Origin: Paludibacteraceae bacterium
GTDB taxonomy: Bacteria; Bacteroidota; Bacteroidia; Bacteroidales; Paludibacteraceae
Reading direction: 5' to 3'
DNA: 33,172 bases
NCBI GenBank assembly: GCA_017444065.1
Contig: JAFSXJ010000001.1
Span: forward strand, 1 to 33,172
The notes under the pieces were generated by a model that saw nothing but the letters and a program-made list of their open reading frames with translations, ran no database searches and had not been told where the DNA came from. The first letter of the stretch is position 1. Every line of letters begins with the position of its first letter. The translations under genes were made by a program, and so were the position numbers. Below, piece by piece: positions 25,958 through 32,012 of the stretch.

Positions 25958-26236
25958 TATTGCTGCGAAAATGTTAATGATTCCAAAACTTCGGTAATAT
26001 TACCCCCAATAAGACTAAAATCATCATATTGCGAGAGAGAAAAGGTCAAGAGCAAGTGGTTCAATATCTGCCACGGCGGCTGTCTGCATGACGGTTTTCA
26101 TGCTTCAGGAGATTTCAGGTACAAGACGTTCCTATGTCCGGCATACAAGAAGATATTCGCACATATAGAAAAACGCCTGCAAGAAGGCGGTATGCAGAGT
26201 TTGCAGGGAAAGTCTGCAAATGGAGAGCCGGAATAA
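25958..26236 (+). pseudogene. C-terminal remnant of a radical-SAM (anaerobic sulfatase-maturase type) protein
   Basis: The frame ending at the TAA at 26234-26236 reads WFNICHGGCLHDG, FRYKTFLCPAYKKIFAHIEKRL, which is the SPASM tail of anaerobic sulfatase-maturating enzymes. Only about the last 65 residues resemble the family, and nothing upstream in frame does. Of the usual C-x2-C-x5-C-x3-C cluster only the last C-x3-C remains; the earlier two positions are Lys and Ser. There is no start codon with a plausible N-terminus. The fragment ends 9 bp before copy 1 of the 174-bp repeat, so an insertion or deletion there probably removed the rest. Confidence 0.75.
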
Positions 26237-26244
26237 GAAAGATT

Positions 26245-26418
26245 GTTCCAACCACATGACCATCACGGGATGGAGAAGCCAATTGACTTTTGGCTTCGAA
26301 CAGGGAAAGGCGGGCGGGGAGCCCATGCCGACCGAGAAGTCCCAAGAACGTCATAAGAACGATGCAAAAAAATAGTCCCTCATGGGACTAAATGGGGTCT
26401 TTGAAATATTGTCGAATC
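26245..26418 (-). repeat. 174-bp structured 3' element, copy 1
   Basis: This segment is repeated at 28964-29138 with one substitution and one extra A in a poly-A run. It contains a small hairpin (CCATC/GATGG, 26260-26273), an 8-bp-stem hairpin (GAAGCCAA/TTGGCTTC, 26275-26297), a GC-rich block and an intrinsic terminator for the minus strand. It abuts the stop codon of the first ATPase gene. Short open frames inside it are probably not genes. I recall similar translated fragments in other Prevotella/Bacteroides annotations, which suggests a multicopy element, but this cannot be checked here. Confidence 0.85.
26366..26390 (-). terminator. Intrinsic terminator of ATPase gene 1
   Basis: On the minus strand, TAGTCCC pairs with GGGACTA around a 4-nt loop and is followed by seven T residues. 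It lies 27 bp past the ATPase stop codon, inside the 174-bp element. Confidence 0.85.
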
Positions 26419-27622
26419 AATAAAGCAAACCGAACAACCATAACGGAATGCGGTTGAAATGACCGGATTCAATATCAGCTATGGCAAGGAAAGAGTCGGG
26501 CTCATCTCTTATCTGGTCGAATGTCTTACCCTTTCCTCCAACCTCAAACAGATATTTGCGGTTAATCATGAAGTCGCCTTGCTTAGGCATCAGAACTTCT
26601 GCCACATTATGTAACTGGTTGTAGAAGAATGTTTCGCGCAGTGTTCCTTTGTCAATGTGCGTGCTTAGACAATACATCAGATTAGTGTTGTCAAGATATA
26701 ATTTGTCGGGTTTGTTCAAACTGTTAAGATTGATTACTTCATGCGAATAGAGCGGTAGCAAACCTGCTTTGGCAAGCAATCCCAACATGCGCATACCGTT
26801 CTCACGATTCGTTTCCAGTTCGCGGTAGAGTTCAGCCATCTTGGGCATAAACGGCACGCGTTCCGCCAAGATCATCAGCATGCGCTTAGTTTTCTCGACA
26901 GTTGTATAGGATACATCCTCCACTTGGGGCAAATCGTTCTCCAGTACATGCAACACCACACCATGCAGCCGCTCGTTAAAACTATCGCCCTTTTCTTTAT
27001 AGAACGGATAGCAACCGTGCTCCAGATAAGCGTCAAACAATGGGAGTATTTTTTTGTCACGAGTGATGCGAGCGCTAATCTGCGTATGCTCCTTGAGCAG
27101 GTTCTCCAGAGATATGGCTTCACCAATCTCGTATCCTTCGAAGTTAAGGTATTCGCGGAACGACATGCAATGTAATGTATATATACGCTGTCTGCGACCA
27201 AGGTCAACTTCATGTCTGGAAATATCCAACATGGATGAACCGGTATATACTACATGCAGATCATTATAGTCATCGTAACAACTTTTAATGTACTCTGCCC
27301 AATGCTTCAGATGATGCACTTCGTCAAGAAATATATGTGTTCCACCGTGAGTATAGTGATATTCAATCAAGTCCATTAGATTATGCGTCTTGAACCACAT
27401 GTTGTCTAAACGGACATAGAGAACCTTGTTCCGATCAGGAAAGGCTTCCTTGATGTGTTGTAGCATCAATGTAGTCTTACCGACACCGCCACCGCCTTTG
27501 ATGCCGATGATGCGATTTTCCCAGTTAATCTGGTTGAACAGATACCGATGGAACGCTGTGCTAACCTCATTTATTTTGCGTTCGCTAATGATGTACAATT
27601 GCTCAATTTCAGAATAGTCCAT
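26417..27622 (-). CDS. AAA_14/DUF4143 family ATPase (1)
   Basis: This 401-residue ATPase has Walker A GGGGVGKTT (residues 43-51), Walker B HIFLDEVHH (about 96-104) and sensor-1-like VVYTGSS, then the CMSFREYLNF segment that marks AAA_14, and a DUF4143 C-terminal domain (ETFFYNQLHNVAEVLMPKQGDFMINRKYLFEVGGKGK ending IPLWLFGLLY). Family members are multicopy in Bacteroidetes genomes and have no settled function. There is no signal peptide, so it is cytoplasmic. It has its own promoter, three 32-bp-spaced repeats upstream of that promoter, and a terminator in a repeated element. It is not in an operon. Confidence 0.88.
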   Translation of the reverse strand: MDYSEIEQLYIISERKINEVSTAFHRYLFNQINWENRIIGIKGGGGVGKTTLMLQHIKEAFPDRNKVLYVRLDNMWFKTHNLMDLIEYHYTHGGTHIFLDEVHHLKHWAEYIKSCYDDYNDLHVVYTGSSMLDISRHEVDLGRRQRIYTLHCMSFREYLNFEGYEIGEAISLENLLKEHTQISARITRDKKILPLFDAYLEHGCYPFYKEKGDSFNERLHGVVLHVLENDLPQVEDVSYTTVEKTKRMLMILAERVPFMPKMAELYRELETNRENGMRMLGLLAKAGLLPLYSHEVINLNSLNKPDKLYLDNTNLMYCLSTHIDKGTLRETFFYNQLHNVAEVLMPKQGDFMINRKYLFEVGGKGKTFDQIRDEPDSFLAIADIESGHFNRIPLWLFGLLY

Positions 27623-27667
27623 AATGTTATTTGCTAATTAGTCGTTTGTAAAATTGGCTTGACGTTG

Positions 27668-27698
27668 CAAAGGTACAAAAAATAATTGAATAATGCAA
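27668..27698 (-). promoter_or_regulatory. Promoter of ATPase gene 1
   Basis: On the minus strand, TTG (27698-27696), a 20-bp spacer and TACCTTTG (27675-27668) match the consensus. The -7 box is 45 bp from the ATG. Confidence 0.8.
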
Positions 27699-27712
27699 GT
27701 TTTTTTTAGACA

Positions 27713-27793
27713 AAAAAGACTTTGAAAGGTTTATTTTTCTAAAAAAAAAGACTTTTGAAAGTCTATTTCTGTCGACAAAAAGACTTTTGAGAG
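27713..27793. repeat. Three direct repeats with exact 32-bp period upstream of ATPase 1
   Basis: AAAAAGACTTTTGAAAG, or a one-base variant, starts at 27713, 27745 and 27777, exactly 32 bp apart (about three helical turns). Copy 1 lacks one T and copy 3 has GAGAG for GAAAG. The array begins 15 bp upstream of the -33 box of the ATPase promoter. Each unit is partly self-complementary (GACTTT/AAAGTC). The spacing points to protein binding sites on one face of the DNA. Confidence 0.8.
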
Positions 27794-27883
27794 TTCTTTC
27801 CGAACATTATGTATGATTGATTCGGCAATATTTCACCGGCAGTGACAGATAAAGAAAACATGATAAGACGAATATATTAATAA

Positions 27884-28978
27884 ATGAAAAGAAACATTCT
27901 GTATTTGCTCCTATTGGCAGCAAGCATGGCTGTGGGGCAAACAACACCCAACTGGTATGACAACGACATGCGGCGGTCGTTCTATCCCGCCGGGCAGTAC
28001 TTCATAGGTTTTGCCGAGGGTAACCGGCGCAACGGCGAAAGTCTGGAGATTGCCACACAACGCCTGAAGGACGCCGCACGCACTGAGGCTGTTAGCACTA
28101 TACGCGTGCACGTGCAGAACACGACCGTCAACCACTCGCTCAGCCAGACACTGCGCACGATGGAAGGTACGTTCCGGCAGTCGGCACGGGAGTTCGAATC
28201 AACGACCACCACTTCCGTGGATATGCAGATTCCCGGCTTGCAGGTCGAGGCGTGGACGAACCCTGCCAACGGCAATATAGCCGCCTTCGCATACGTCAAG
28301 AAAGTAACGCTTATACGTCAGTTGGAGAAGACTATCATCGTCGTACTGACGAAGATTGAGACCTCGCTTGACCAGGTGGACCAGCTCATCGCCAACGGGC
28401 AGAAGATGCAGGCGCGAGACGTGGCAAGCAAGACGCTGCCGCAGTTCGCCGAGGTTGATGAGGCGCAAAAGACCCTTGCGGCGGTGGATGAGAACGCCGA
28501 CGAGGAGAGCCTGCAATTGCAAGAGACACGCGACCTGCAACGCCGCCTGATAGCGTTTGTCACACAACTGAAGAACGGGATAAACATCTACCTGCAATGC
28601 ACGGCGGATATGTTCGGCACGAACTATGGGGCGTTGAAATCCGAGATACAAGGCGAGCTGTCCAAGTTAGGGTGTACGTTCGTAAGTTCACCTGACGAGT
28701 CGGACTGGGCGGTATATGTCAAAGCTCCCGCACGACAGTACAACAAGGCGGATTTTGGTGGAACAAGTTCGTACTTCTCGTATGTGGATGCAACGATAAC
28801 GATTGACAAGACAACCACGGGTCAGCGCATCTTCGAAGACCAGATAAGCGAGAAAGGCGGGCACACGCACAACTTCGAGCAGGCTGCGCGCGATGCGTAC
28901 AAACATATATCGCCGAAGATAAGTGCCCTCATCAAAGAGCAGATACAGCAATATAGATATTTCGTTCCAACCAAATGA
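27884..28978 (+). CDS. Secreted LPP20-like protein
   Basis: The 364-residue protein has a signal peptide (MKRNILYLLLLAASMAVGQ). The N-terminal half shows the LPP20-type layout: PNWYDND, YFIGFAEGN, then a helix of regularly spaced alanines (LEIATQRLKDAARTEAVSTIRVHV), and GNIAAFAYVKK. A middle helical region (about 155-235) is followed by a second domain with WAVYVKAP and VDATITIDKTTTGQRIFEDQI, like a LptE/lipoprotein-associated fold. It is richer in GC than the envelope genes at 19.7-25.9 kb. The last four codons and TGA lie inside copy 2 of the 175-bp repeat, so the native C-terminus may have been replaced. No consensus promoter was found. Confidence 0.82.
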   Translation: MKRNILYLLLLAASMAVGQTTPNWYDNDMRRSFYPAGQYFIGFAEGNRRNGESLEIATQRLKDAARTEAVSTIRVHVQNTTVNHSLSQTLRTMEGTFRQSAREFESTTTTSVDMQIPGLQVEAWTNPANGNIAAFAYVKKVTLIRQLEKTIIVVLTKIETSLDQVDQLIANGQKMQARDVASKTLPQFAEVDEAQKTLAAVDENADEESLQLQETRDLQRRLIAFVTQLKNGINIYLQCTADMFGTNYGALKSEIQGELSKLGCTFVSSPDESDWAVYVKAPARQYNKADFGGTSSYFSYVDATITIDKTTTGQRIFEDQISEKGGHTHNFEQAARDAYKHISPKISALIKEQIQQYRYFVPTK

Positions 28979-29138
28979 CCATCACGGGATGGAGAAGCCA
29001 ATTGACTTTTGGCTTCGAACAGGGAAAGGCGGGCGGGGAGCCCATGCCGACCGAGAAGTCCCAAGAACGTCATAAGAACGATGCAAAAAAAATAGTCCCT
29101 CATGGGACTAAATGGGGTCTTTGAAATATTGTCGAATC
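28964..29138 (-). repeat. 175-bp structured 3' element, copy 2
   Basis: This is the second copy of the element at 26245-26418, nearly identical in DNA. It joins the end of the secreted LPP20-like gene directly to the region just past the stop of the second ATPase gene, which begins 8 bp further on. It carries the same hairpins and minus-strand terminator. Confidence 0.85.
29085..29110 (-). terminator. Intrinsic terminator of ATPase gene 2
   Basis: This is the same TAGTCCC/GGGACTA hairpin as downstream of ATPase 1, here followed by eight T residues on the minus strand. Confidence 0.85.
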
Positions 29139-29145
29139 GAATGAT

Positions 29146-30288
29146 TTAGAAATATAATCCTTGCCAAAGGGCTTTGAGAAAATCATTGATATAGATAATC
29201 TCAATCCCATCATCAGTACGGCGGGTTATCGTGTCCAGAGAAACAACCATTTTATGCGCTTGCGGATAATCTTTTGCGAAAGAGCGCAGATTTTTCAGGT
29301 GTTTGTTTTGAATATCTTCAGCGGATTTGATTTCGATTGCAATATCCGCATTACCGATTACCGCATCCACCTCAATGCCGGTTCCTGTTTTCCAGTATGA
29401 TAATTTTTTGTCATTCCGGGTATAACCGATATATGCAATCAATTCCTGTATAACAAAATGCTCAAATGCGTGACCATATTCCTTTGTTCCACGTTTCAAT
29501 TCCTTTCTTTGCAGCAGATGATTCACGACGCCTATATCAAAGAGGTAGAATTTCGGGGACTGAATTACGCGGCGTTTGGGAGTTTTCGTATAAGCGGGAA
29601 CCATGTAGCCGATGAGAGTATCTTCCAGGATGGAAAAGTATTCCTTTGCGGTGTTGGCACTAACCGAACAATCCGAAGCGATATTGTTGTAATTGACGAT
29701 TTCCCCGTCGGTCATCGCGGCGGTCTCCAGAAACTTGCGGAAACTATGCAAGTTGCGAACCAATGATTCAGCCCGGATTTCTTCTTGCAGGTAAACATCC
29801 ACGTATGCAGTCAAGCCTTTCCATGGTCTGGATGACAAGTAAAAAGGAGGAAGCATACCCTGCGTGACAACTTTGTCAATATCAAGTTCTCCTATCTCCA
29901 CACTGACTAATGGATACAAATAGCAGGGAAGGGCTCGTCCGCCTAAGGTATTGTACCCCTTACGCCTCAGCTTGCGTGCACTGGAGCCACAAAGGATAAA
30001 ACGTATCTGCTTATGCACAATCAATCGCTGCACCTCATTCAGCAGTTCCGGAATTTGTTGGATTTCATCGATGATAACAATGGTATCGCGGTCTTTGTCC
30101 TGTAATTGTTCGTACAAAAGAGAAGGTCTGGCAATATATCGGTTGAACACGTTGGTATCCAGTAAATCAATGTATATAGCTTCGGGAAATTGCTGAAGAA
30201 GCATGGTGGTTTTACCCGTTTGTCTTGCGCCGAAAAGGAAAATGCTCCCCTCCAGTTCTTCTTTTAAGTTGTAATAACGTGTTAACAT
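29146..30288 (-). CDS. AAA_14/DUF4143 family ATPase (2) with nuclease-like C-terminus
   Basis: The 380-residue protein begins almost at its P-loop: GARQTGKTT (residues 20-28), Walker B IVIIDEIQQ (70-78), sensor CGSSARKL, then an AAA_14 lid and a winged-helix-like stretch (NIASDCSVSANTAKEYFSILEDTLI). The DUF4143 part ends with FEHFVIQEL and YWKTGTGIEVDAVIGNADIAIEIKSAE, where Glu306, Asp308, Glu319 and Lys321 form a PD-(D/E)xK nuclease-like arrangement. It is cytoplasmic by sequence. It shares the family but little direct identity with ATPase 1, yet has the same 3' element and an analogous upstream repeat array. The function of the family is not known. Confidence 0.88.
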   Translation of the reverse strand: MLTRYYNLKEELEGSIFLFGARQTGKTTMLLQQFPEAIYIDLLDTNVFNRYIARPSLLYEQLQDKDRDTIVIIDEIQQIPELLNEVQRLIVHKQIRFILCGSSARKLRRKGYNTLGGRALPCYLYPLVSVEIGELDIDKVVTQGMLPPFYLSSRPWKGLTAYVDVYLQEEIRAESLVRNLHSFRKFLETAAMTDGEIVNYNNIASDCSVSANTAKEYFSILEDTLIGYMVPAYTKTPKRRVIQSPKFYLFDIGVVNHLLQRKELKRGTKEYGHAFEHFVIQELIAYIGYTRNDKKLSYWKTGTGIEVDAVIGNADIAIEIKSAEDIQNKHLKNLRSFAKDYPQAHKMVVSLDTITRRTDDGIEIIYINDFLKALWQGLYF

Positions 30289-30322
30289 ATGCTTGAAAAT
30301 TACTGTTTATTGAAAAGTTAAT

Positions 30323-30404
30323 ACATTGCAAATCCGCAGTGTGATTGCTAATTTACATTGCAAATCCGCAGTAGCACCTCTGATATTCCTTTCAAATCTG
30401 CAAC
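30323..30404. repeat. Three direct repeats with exact 32-bp period upstream of ATPase 2
   Basis: ACATTGCAAATCCGCAGT occurs at 30323-30340 and 30355-30372; a looser copy at 30387-30404 keeps CAAATCTGCA at the same phase. The period is exactly 32 bp, the same as at ATPase 1, though the repeat sequence is different. The array lies between the promoter and the ATG, and the third copy ends at the -7 box, so a bound protein could block transcription. Confidence 0.8.
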
Positions 30405-30435
30405 AAAGTTACGACTTTTTTATGAAATATGCAAA
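30404..30435 (-). promoter_or_regulatory. Promoter of ATPase gene 2
   Basis: On the minus strand, TTTG (30435-30432), a 20-bp spacer and TAACTTTG (30411-30404) match the consensus. The predicted leader of about 105 nt spans the repeats. Confidence 0.8.
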
Positions 30436-30512
30436 TTTTATGGAAGAAAAATGAGAAAATTTATTCATTTTGATTCGGCAGTATGCAAATAACCATGTAA
30501 ACTAACAAATAT

Positions 30513-32012
30513 ATGAAGAAACAAATAATTCTACTACTGCTTTCAGCTTTGCCTATGGCAACAATGGCGCAGACCAGTTTTGACGAGTTCCGCAAGCAGC
30601 AGCAGGCGGAGTACAGCCAGTTCAAGGAAAAGTCGCAGGCGGAATACGATGAGTTCCGCAGGAAGGCGAACGAGGAGTATGCCGAGTTCATGCGTCAGGC
30701 GTGGGAGGCGTTTCCTGTGCATGAGGCGGTGAAACCTGTTGAGGAGAAAACTCTGCCGCCGGTGGTATATAAAGAACCTGCACCGCAGCCAAAGCCTCAG
30801 CCCAAGCCGAAAGAGGAAGAGAAACCTGTGCAGATTGTCGTGAAGCCGAAAGTGGTGGTAGTGCCAGCCCCACACCCGGCACCGGAACCTATCGCGCCCG
30901 TCAAGCCGAAAGAAGAACCATACAAGAAAGTGTCGGTCGGGTACTTCGGAGCTGTCATCACTGTAGGATTCCCGGTGAACGACAACCTGAAGTTGCGCGC
31001 GCTGGAGGAGAATGCCATAGCCGATGCATGGAAGCAACTGTCGGACAGCCGCTATGACATAACGGTCAGCACGGCACTCAACGCCAGAAAAGCCAACGCG
31101 CTGTGCGACTGGGCGTACATGAAGATGCTGCAGGCGGTAACGGAAAAGCAGTACGGCAAGACAAACGAAGCGGTGCTGGCGCAGGCGTTTCTGATGACGC
31201 AGTCGGGCTACCGCGTGCGCCTGGGAATGAGCGAGACGAAACTGTACATGCTTGTCGCCAGTCTGTACGACATATTCAACCTGCGGTACTACGACATCGA
31301 CGGGACGAAGTTCTACAACGTGAGCGGTGACAAGAATGTGAAGATGCAGATAACCCAAGCCAGTTACGGCAAGGAGAAATCGCTGTCGCTGCAAATGACC
31401 AAACTGCCGCAACTCGGCAGCGACCTTACGCCCAAACGGACTCTGACCTCCAAGAAAGGCGTCACGGCTTCCGCCAGCGTGAACAAGAACATGATAGATT
31501 TCTTCAACACTTATCCGCAGGCATGCTTCAATGGTGACCAGACAACCCGCTGGGCGGCATACGCCAACACACCTATAGAGAAATCCGTCAGGGACATGCT
31601 CTATCCGCCGCTGAAGAAAACCATCACAGGCATGAGCGAGAAGGATGCTGTAGGTATTCTGCTCAACTGGGTGCAGACGGCATTCGAGTACGGCTATGAC
31701 GACCAGATATGGGGTGGTGACCGCGCGTTCTTTGCTCAGGAGACGCTTTATTACCCGTACTGCGACTGCGAGGACCGTGCGATTCTGTTCTCACGTCTGG
31801 TGCGTGACCTCGTCGGGCTGGATGTGGTGCTGCTGTACTACCCCGGACATCTGGCGACAGCGGTGGCTTTCAACGGCGAGGTGAAAGGTGACTATTTGAC
31901 ATACAAGAACCGCAAGTATGTGGTATGCGACCCGACATTTATCAACGCCGGCGTAGGGAGAACCATGCCGACGATGAACAACAAGCAGGCGCAGGTTATT
32001 GCGCTGAAATAG
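30513..32012 (+). CDS. Secreted transglutaminase-like protein with Pro/Lys-rich linker
   Basis: This 499-residue protein has a signal peptide (cleavage near TMAQ), a short coiled coil with repeated Q-AEY--F/DEFR- units (about 22-65), a proline/lysine/glutamate linker (about 72-140; PQPKPQPKPKEEEKP) and a large globular domain. The C-terminal part carries a transglutaminase/papain-like triad: Cys419 in CDCEDRAILF, His446 in YPGHLATAV and Asp473 in VVCDPTF. Such domains may act as cysteine proteases, amidases or crosslinkers; the reaction is not known. The linker suggests it spans or binds the cell wall. It is 8 bp ahead of a small membrane-anchored gene. Confidence 0.85.
   Translation: MKKQIILLLLSALPMATMAQTSFDEFRKQQQAEYSQFKEKSQAEYDEFRRKANEEYAEFMRQAWEAFPVHEAVKPVEEKTLPPVVYKEPAPQPKPQPKPKEEEKPVQIVVKPKVVVVPAPHPAPEPIAPVKPKEEPYKKVSVGYFGAVITVGFPVNDNLKLRALEENAIADAWKQLSDSRYDITVSTALNARKANALCDWAYMKMLQAVTEKQYGKTNEAVLAQAFLMTQSGYRVRLGMSETKLYMLVASLYDIFNLRYYDIDGTKFYNVSGDKNVKMQITQASYGKEKSLSLQMTKLPQLGSDLTPKRTLTSKKGVTASASVNKNMIDFFNTYPQACFNGDQTTRWAAYANTPIEKSVRDMLYPPLKKTITGMSEKDAVGILLNWVQTAFEYGYDDQIWGGDRAFFAQETLYYPYCDCEDRAILFSRLVRDLVGLDVVLLYYPGHLATAVAFNGEVKGDYLTYKNRKYVVCDPTFINAGVGRTMPTMNNKQAQVIALK

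Follow-up and report, generated by a model that had tools for sequence, protein, structure and literature searches.

The boxA signal recruits NusB/S10 and makes RNA polymerase Rho-resistant. Nus antitermination operates in rRNA operons and phages and, according to an eLife study of 2020, in CRISPR arrays, whose leaders are reported to contain boxA. A gene inserted in an operon normally blocks the genes behind it, and we describe here gene units that may escape this rule. The stretch analysed, hereafter the window, comprises 33,172 nucleotides of a Paludibacteraceae bacterium (GenBank assembly GCA_017444065.1, contig JAFSXJ010000001.1, positions 1 to 33,172) whose genus consists of rumen bacteria. 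Two AAA_14 ATPase genes lie there between genes of a putative host operon, each within a unit that opens with a boxA-like motif followed by an arm, T, and closes with the reverse-complementary arm A1. We lean towards the reading that these ATPases sit in boxA-guarded cassettes, in which RNA of the host operon would be antiterminated and pairing of the arms (T:A1) would bypass the insert. One of the closest described arrangements is the E. coli rrn leader, in which the order boxB-boxA-boxC is accompanied by a long-range helix between leader and trailer (PMC10250234). Like the rrn leader, the cassettes present a hairpin (at about half of sites), boxA, and then a helix arm with its partner far downstream. 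Unlike in the rrn case, what lies inside the loop is a unit of accessory genes with protein-coding genes on either side, the arms vary from unit to unit, and the terminator of the cargo often uses A1 as its 5′ arm.

Other systems share individual features with the cassettes. Nus factors have been proposed to loop boxA to polymerase and can repress a ParE-like toxin (PMC5725501). The cassettes resemble these gamma-proteobacterial toxin genes in placing boxA near a toxin-antitoxin (TA) gene, but in that text boxA stands in the toxin's own leader and represses, whereas the cassette boxA is upstream of the cargo promoter motif and is accompanied by T/A1. CRISPR leaders likewise place boxA ahead of a long untranslated RNA, although a CRISPR leader is not a gene cassette. 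Integron gene cassettes are also small exchangeable units rich in TA genes; the present units, compared in boundary, promoters and cargo orientation, differ in having boxA-T/A1 as their boundary, promoter motifs of their own and cargo in both orientations. Both window ATPases match PADLOC models for PDC-S01, a candidate defence class. PDC-S01 is the most frequent individual locus in a cattle-rumen set, and the available part of that article is silent on boxA or flanking arms where it treats PDC-S01 (PMC13356809). Titles and abstracts among the literature matches listed gave no account of boxA and complementary arms around gene cassettes. Judged by sequence, the cassettes are assigned neither to transposons, whose conserved ends they lack, nor to integrons, for whose attC sites and integrase no search was made, nor to known boxA systems, with which they share the boxA sequence at the level of the order.

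The distribution of the motif points to its identity. Exact matches to GATCTTTGAMATATTG, from which the window motif GGTCTTTGAAATATTG differs by one base, numbered 130 in 70 of 178 congeneric genomes, with 0 for the reversed control, and in an order-wide sample of 247 genomes the relaxed form GWTCTTTGAMATATTG (W at position 2) matched 71 times, in 46 of them, with a single control match. Of 30 order-wide loci fetched, 14 were rrn operons, in which the motif lay between the 16S and 23S genes (13) or before 16S (1). Among 24 leader sequences of Bacteroidales 16S genes, a few of which come from one operon, TCTTTGA was the most shared 7-mer and occurred in 20, and the 24-mer GATCTTTGACATATTGGATTACCG occurred in 46 stretches of the named genome collection, all from Bacteroidales or Paludibacteraceae. 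At the level of the order, the motif, read as RNA as GATCTTTGACATATTG, therefore matches by sequence the Bacteroidales rRNA boxA antiterminator. Two further order-wide matches (L297, L315) place an exact boxA directly 3′ of open reading frames (ORFs) that, judged by their sequence, may be cas1/cas2-like, as if in a CRISPR leader. A 16S-like match at L252 (G087:C40) lies on a contig with TTTGGGG repeats, which may be eukaryotic or organellar contamination of the metagenome-assembled genome, and boxA was not readable there.

Complementary arms accompany the motif at a majority of sites. With T directly after the motif and its reverse complement A1 further on, a score of at least 11 was reached at 71 of 106 sites (a count that holds the window's first site twice) versus 2 of 106 after shuffling; inverted ends of the kind expected of a transposon or a miniature inverted-repeat transposable element (MITE) are thus present. 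Requiring T near the motif defined 66 units of 73-1,741 bp, which include window unit 1 and not unit 2. Their arms fall into the classes TTACC (43), TCGAATC (5), TAGAGA (3) and others (15), and the 23 of 66 outside the TTACC class match their own A1 too. Since T differs between units yet matches its own A1, complementarity is maintained within units. Across units only boxA is common, and the ends are not conserved as a family of transposons or MITEs with terminal inverted repeats would need. In window unit 1, T:A1 forms a predicted 20-bp duplex of 19 Watson-Crick pairs and one G.U pair at -28.7 kcal/mol, surpassing all 480 windows tested over ~2.4 kb, the best of which gave -14.4 kcal/mol. Window unit 2 yielded -23.6 kcal/mol versus -16.4 kcal/mol for the best pairing elsewhere, surpassing all 473 windows over ~2.4 kb. 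A simple transposon with fixed terminal repeats was considered separately and rejected: when ATPase-homolog and motif loci were scanned for inverted repeats, at most 1 in 100 shuffles did as well in 12 of 62 rows, and some of these 12 were palindromes of terminators.

The orientation of neighbouring genes was strongly biased. Counting genes of at least 110 amino acids within 600 nt, the right-hand gene was co-oriented with boxA in 52 of 54 cases (p = 2e-13) and the left-hand gene in 41 of 48 (p = 6e-7); at motif-only loci the nearest left gene ran with boxA in 38 of 49. By this measure boxA stands on the strand of the host genes, the presumed transcribed strand. Cargo itself was sense in 37 units and antisense in 17 (26 and 2, respectively, in the motif-only set). 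Between the unit end and the first gene, a -7 motif was found in 31 of 38 sense units, where 4.1 were expected, and in 16 of 18 antisense units, against an expectation of 2.2, and because it lies inside the unit, the cargo's own RNA should start after T. An intrinsic terminator coincided with A1 in 25 of 37 sense versus 4 of 17 antisense units (p = 0.004). In 32 of 37 sense units the local hairpin was weaker than T:A1, a comparison that leans to T because A1 was picked as the best complement.

Units are compact, with one ORF of at least 60 amino acids in 40, two in 18, three in 1 and none in 7 (n = 66) and a median of 80% coding sequence in the 59 that bear ORFs. Families detected in 57 non-redundant cargo proteins comprise, among the matches listed (25 of 42), AAA_14 (19), DUF4143 (14), ParE (6), YoeB (3), PIN_3 (3), PIN (2) and MqsA (2), as well as RelB, RelE, Fic and others. 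AAA_14 and TA families dominate this cargo, in a set that the search route enriched for ATPases; in the 38 units found by motif searches alone, a gene of at least 330 amino acids was present in 11, only smaller genes in 21 and none in 6. Across all 73 flank proteins, the matches listed (25 of 43) comprised AAA_14 (2), DUF4143 (2), YhcG_C (3), Bro-N (2), glycosyltransferase (2), LRR_5 (2), YoeB (1) and Gp49 (1), some flank proteins belonging to neighbouring boxA units. Four of the 66 units (L220, L170, L189:5339 and L232) are near-empty, with boxA-T and A1 enclosing 73-205 bp without a 60-amino-acid ORF. At L188 (G167:C11:225000-235000), three boxA motifs form a direct array with small gene pairs, RelBE/ParE-like and HigBA-like to judge by their sequence, and the promoter region of the gene that follows the last unit is like that of the third.

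Cargo changes while sites persist, and units recur while sites change. G187, G197, G168 and G208 have a homologous left gene, present as a fragment in G197 and G208; behind it stand boxA and, in each genome, a different ATPase, sense in two and antisense in two. The left flanks of G187 and G197 are 92% identical. The ATPase C unit recurs at unrelated loci in G168 and G208 with 97.9% identity over 1,443 bp, starting at boxA base 1, and copies of the ATPase E unit agree at 98.7% over 1,307 bp, their identity beginning one base ahead of boxA. Where two sites shared a left flank, similarity ended within 15 nt past the motif in 43 of 49 pairs. A locus from another family (L287) has boxA-T around a small gene pair, presumably AbrB-like plus PIN as read from the sequence; A1 and a terminator are present there too, and the plan thus extends beyond a single genus. 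Overall, the class-level architecture of boxA, T/A1, cargo of one or two genes with a promoter motif, orientation with the host genes and exchange of cargo is well supported by these comparisons.

A first-pass annotation of the window had suggested that shared flanks define a unit with an exchangeable ATPase inside, which is borne out by the four ATPases after one left gene, the recurrence of one unit at unrelated loci and the TA cargo between the same kind of ends. It had located the defining flank in a ~174-bp element behind each ATPase. Two such copies do exist, with 98.9% identity over 175 columns (1 mismatch, 1 gap opening), and they are the only full copies in this genome, which has three partial copies besides. 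The element is on the whole composite, however, and its boxA-T end, not its core, defines the unit; the complementary arms had escaped the first-pass annotation. The core, R1 (~80 bp, about element positions 12-100), is a structured dispersed repeat found by covariance model in 83 of 178 genus genomes, with up to 14 scored copies per genome, and 11 of its 17 predicted pairs show a change kept on both sides in 34 aligned copies. Only 6 of 43 R1 copies outside the window had an ATPase within 1.5 kb, as judged by the two window ATPase profiles alone, which other AAA_14 families would escape, and with some loci ending at contig edges. Of 64 sources searched, namely the window plus 63 loci that had each been fetched for a boxA site, an ATPase or a host gene, R1 occurred in the window and L197 alone. 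The element as an ATPase-linked 3′ flank was accordingly rejected, and the prediction that most copies would adjoin such ATPases did not hold. Pairing of R1 with boxA is not unique to the window, since an R1 copy in G239 ends 13 nt before a boxA. The part of the element that recurs around other genes is the last ~25 bp, GGTCTTTGAAATATTG-TCGAATC. As a known RNA the element was likewise rejected: no Rfam family reached its gathering score in the window, and of seven sub-threshold matches at E ≤ 10 over 26100-30600 none fell on the elements; plasmids and phages gave no match to the element. R1 folds into two hairpins with loops TTGACTT and GGGGA and covarying stems, with no clear gene association (window copies; L003-L046, L317-L346).

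Because the cassettes copy the boxB-boxA-helix plan of rrn around an accessory gene, we propose antitermination combined with T:A1 closure. RNA polymerase transcribing the host operon would copy boxA, load the Nus complex through NusB/S10 and, so loaded, resist Rho over ~1.4 kb of untranslated RNA opposite the ATPase in the window, or over the cassette elsewhere. The emerging A1 would then pair with T, which the boxA tether would keep close to the polymerase. This pairing would, in many sense cassettes, break the cassette's own terminator, whose 5′ arm is A1, while in antisense cassettes it would shut the insert off as a loop. RNA from the cassette's own promoter, having neither boxA nor T, would terminate normally. 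The cassette would be near-neutral for its operon, and its near-neutrality would account for the persistence and interchange of ATPases and TA genes in operons. Of this scheme, we infer Nus loading, T:A1 pairing in vivo, terminator disruption and near-neutrality. More tentative is the broader proposition that a cassette class, common in one genus and seen once in another family, adopted the rRNA signal such that only host-operon transcripts would cross cassette and terminator. If so, ATPases and TA genes would be nearly cost-free passengers, swappable at fixed operon slots, and the shared boxA-T...A1 frame would explain in general how TA and candidate-defence genes settle in operons. Nus antitermination would then be tied to gene turnover, and boxA with complementary arms would offer a simple sequence handle for finding new accessory genes.

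Several results weigh against boxA-guarded cassettes. The single readable congeneric 16S leader (G134, L251) had no recognisable boxA, and the window motif begins with GG instead of GA/GT. A hairpin left of the motif was clear at half of the sites (z < -2 in 51% of 81, versus 11% of controls), and the opposite-strand terminator expected there was found in 9 of 17 antisense versus 13 of 37 sense units (p = 0.25). The antisense arrangement of the window is the minority one, given that antisense cargo made up only 2 of 28 motif-only loci. T/A1 fell short of a score of 11 at 35 of 106 sites, and one of the 71 scoring sites lies 2.3 kb off. Arms of window unit 2, which is outside the 66 units, were missed by the identity scan (score 8, at another place; 65-70 of 100 shuffles as good) and are seen only when G.U pairs are allowed; this unit fits the architecture only by G.U-tolerant pairing. 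Mismatches in 44 distinct T:A1 pairs comprised 13 G.U, 5 A.C and 7 others (p = 0.10), and this lean of G.U over A.C is only suggestive of RNA pairing as opposed to DNA inverted repeats. Eight unit pairs lack long left homology, and three of them involve one ATPase; similarity started within 8 bp of boxA in four of the eight and inside the unit in the other four. Finally, the plan was present at only 1 of 16 non-rrn order-wide loci, five of which have less than 320 nt to the right.

The main rival is a non-autonomous mobile DNA element that would have T and A1 as its terminal inverted repeats and be moved in trans by a recombinase, with boxA a passenger or a target-site feature. Inverted ends that bracket one- or two-gene units, the near-identical ATPase C unit at unrelated loci from boxA base 1, the near-empty units and the abrupt loss of similarity after the motif in pairs with shared left flanks all agree with it. 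We nonetheless consider it unlikely. T varies between units and is matched within each, so one transposase would have to read unlike ends; the orientation of units tracks host genes (52/54 and 41/48); and no transposase or integrase is among the cargo families listed (25 of 42). Mobility would explain exchange but would leave the orientation, the diversity of the arms and the presence of boxA unaccounted for. The direct array of TA units at L188 also invites an integron-like interpretation, in which the stretch left of boxA would be an attC-like site common to the cassettes of one genome; within one genome, about 50-110 bp left of the motif are indeed common to sites whose right-hand genes differ. 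That stretch varies between genomes and is sometimes low-complexity, cargo runs in both orientations, and the units have their own promoter motif, all of which makes integron-like cassettes improbable, on a comparison that included no search for attC core sites or an integrase.

We attach a similarly low probability to the proposal that boxA represses sense cargo from read-through RNA, as Nus does on suhB and a ParE-like toxin, instead of protecting the host operon. Repression would leave A1 and its overlap with the terminator unexplained, and antisense cargo, both window ATPases included, also has boxA. In its favour, boxA and Nus repress a Citrobacter koseri ParE-like toxin gene in E. coli (PMC5725501), and the 57 cargo proteins include the ParE and YoeB families counted above. 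That the flanks are ordinary, the 174-bp element being a recent duplication without any function linked to the ATPases, would suit the dispersal of the R1 core, mostly without a matching ATPase nearby. It is very improbable, however, as the last 25 bp of the element are boxA-T, which recurs around unrelated cargo, and the genus-wide motif statistics speak against it.

Coordinates of the two units and their surroundings are collected below, the proposed boxA-guarded cassettes corresponding to units 1 and 2.

Features of the two ATPase units and neighbouring host genes in the window
Feature	Position	Strand	Source
Left host gene, 269 amino acids	25129..25938	+	
Element copy 1 (dispersed core, hairpin, boxA-like motif and most of arm T)	26246..26418	+	
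R1 dispersed structured repeat within element copy 1	26261..26340	+	
Hairpin with A-run to its left, terminator-like for minus-strand ATPase 1	26374..26389	-	sequence
boxA-like motif GGTCTTTGAAATATTG, unit 1 (1 base different from GATCTTTGAMATATTG)	26396..26411	+	
Arm T, unit 1; overlaps end of boxA-like motif	26402..26421	+	
ATPase 1, 401 amino acids, AAA_14; antisense to host genes	26417..27622	-	
Three ~32-bp phased repeats 5′ of ATPase 1 -7 box; palindrome with 7-bp arms in one	27702..27798	no strand	
Arm A1, unit 1	27816..27835	+	
Host gene, 364 amino acids	27884..28978	+	
Element copy 2 (R1 core 28980-29059, hairpin 29094-29109)	28965..29138	+	
boxA-like motif, unit 2	29116..29131	+	
Arm T, unit 2	29126..29144	+	
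ATPase 2, 380 amino acids, AAA_14 and DUF4143; antisense to host genes	29146..30288	-	
Three 32-bp phased repeats between ATPase 2 start and -7 box	30306..30401	no strand	
Arm A1, unit 2	30465..30484	+	
Right host gene, 499 amino acids	30513..32012	+	

Each minus-strand ATPase gene is thus flanked by plus-strand host genes (25129, 27884, 30513). The 269-amino-acid left host gene gave SdrD_B and CarboxypepD_reg matches in a Pfam scan, both under the cut-off. Homologs of the 364- and 499-amino-acid host genes lie only 37 nt apart in G296. A paralogous operon in the same genome (L183, G000:C41) has homologs of both (80% and 82% identity, the former partial), separated by a 155-codon open frame and non-coding DNA without boxA or ATPase. 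Relative to its paralog, the 364-amino-acid gene lost its stop ~11 nt before element copy 2 and gained eight codons. Left of element copy 1, at 26000-26245, an open frame, perhaps a gene remnant, had its best other match among fetched loci at E 0.018.

The first-pass annotation had labelled both proteins AAA_14/DUF4143 ATPases that are only distantly alike. Pfam detected AAA_14 in both, with Walker motifs present, and DUF4143 in ATPase 2; it gave no DUF4143 match for ATPase 1, so that half of the label is shown for one protein only. Their distance was confirmed by pairwise BLASTP, which found nothing convincing past the P-loop (best 23.1 bits, E 0.013). Residues E276, D308, E319 and K321 of ATPase 2 are invariant in 30 aligned sequences, and D308, E319 and K321 would fit DUF4143 as a PD-(D/E)xK-like nuclease domain. 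Solved structures gave seven matches to ATPase 1, confined to the P-loop region, and none to the ATPase 2 profile.

Three direct repeats spaced ~32 bp had also been described ahead of each gene, and these were recovered. Copies at ATPase 1 start at 27702, 27734 and 27767 (spacing 32 and 33; 75% and 66% identity to the reference copy); for ATPase 2 the program returned 30322/30354 (spacing 32, 75%), and reading the sequence gave the three 32-bp copies of the table. Autocorrelation was best at lag 32 for both, with 0 of 100 mononucleotide shuffles as good. The common layout once proposed for the two genes holds for the presence of repeats and element but not for the position of the repeats, which lie upstream of the -7 box (at -53) in ATPase 1 and between the -7 box (at -123) and the ATG in ATPase 2, a split that, by reading, holds across both families. 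The expected period of 31-33 bp proved to be conserved in each family: among ATPase-1 homologs the best lag was 32/33 in 21 of 30, with p ≤ 0.05 for 18 of the 21, and among ATPase-2 homologs it was 31/32 in 25 of 28, with p ≤ 0.05 for 21 of the 25. Of 51 control flank genes, 15 reached p ≤ 0.05 against mononucleotide shuffles, 4 of them at lag 31-33, and of 26 other cargo genes 5 did so, 1 at lag 31-33. The pattern suggests that the phased repeats are probably the ATPase's own autoregulatory operators. Palindromic repeats, which are not evident for ATPase 2, occur at 32-33 bp in some ATPase 1 homologs, such as GAGTTTNNAAACTC, present three times in L082 and L083.

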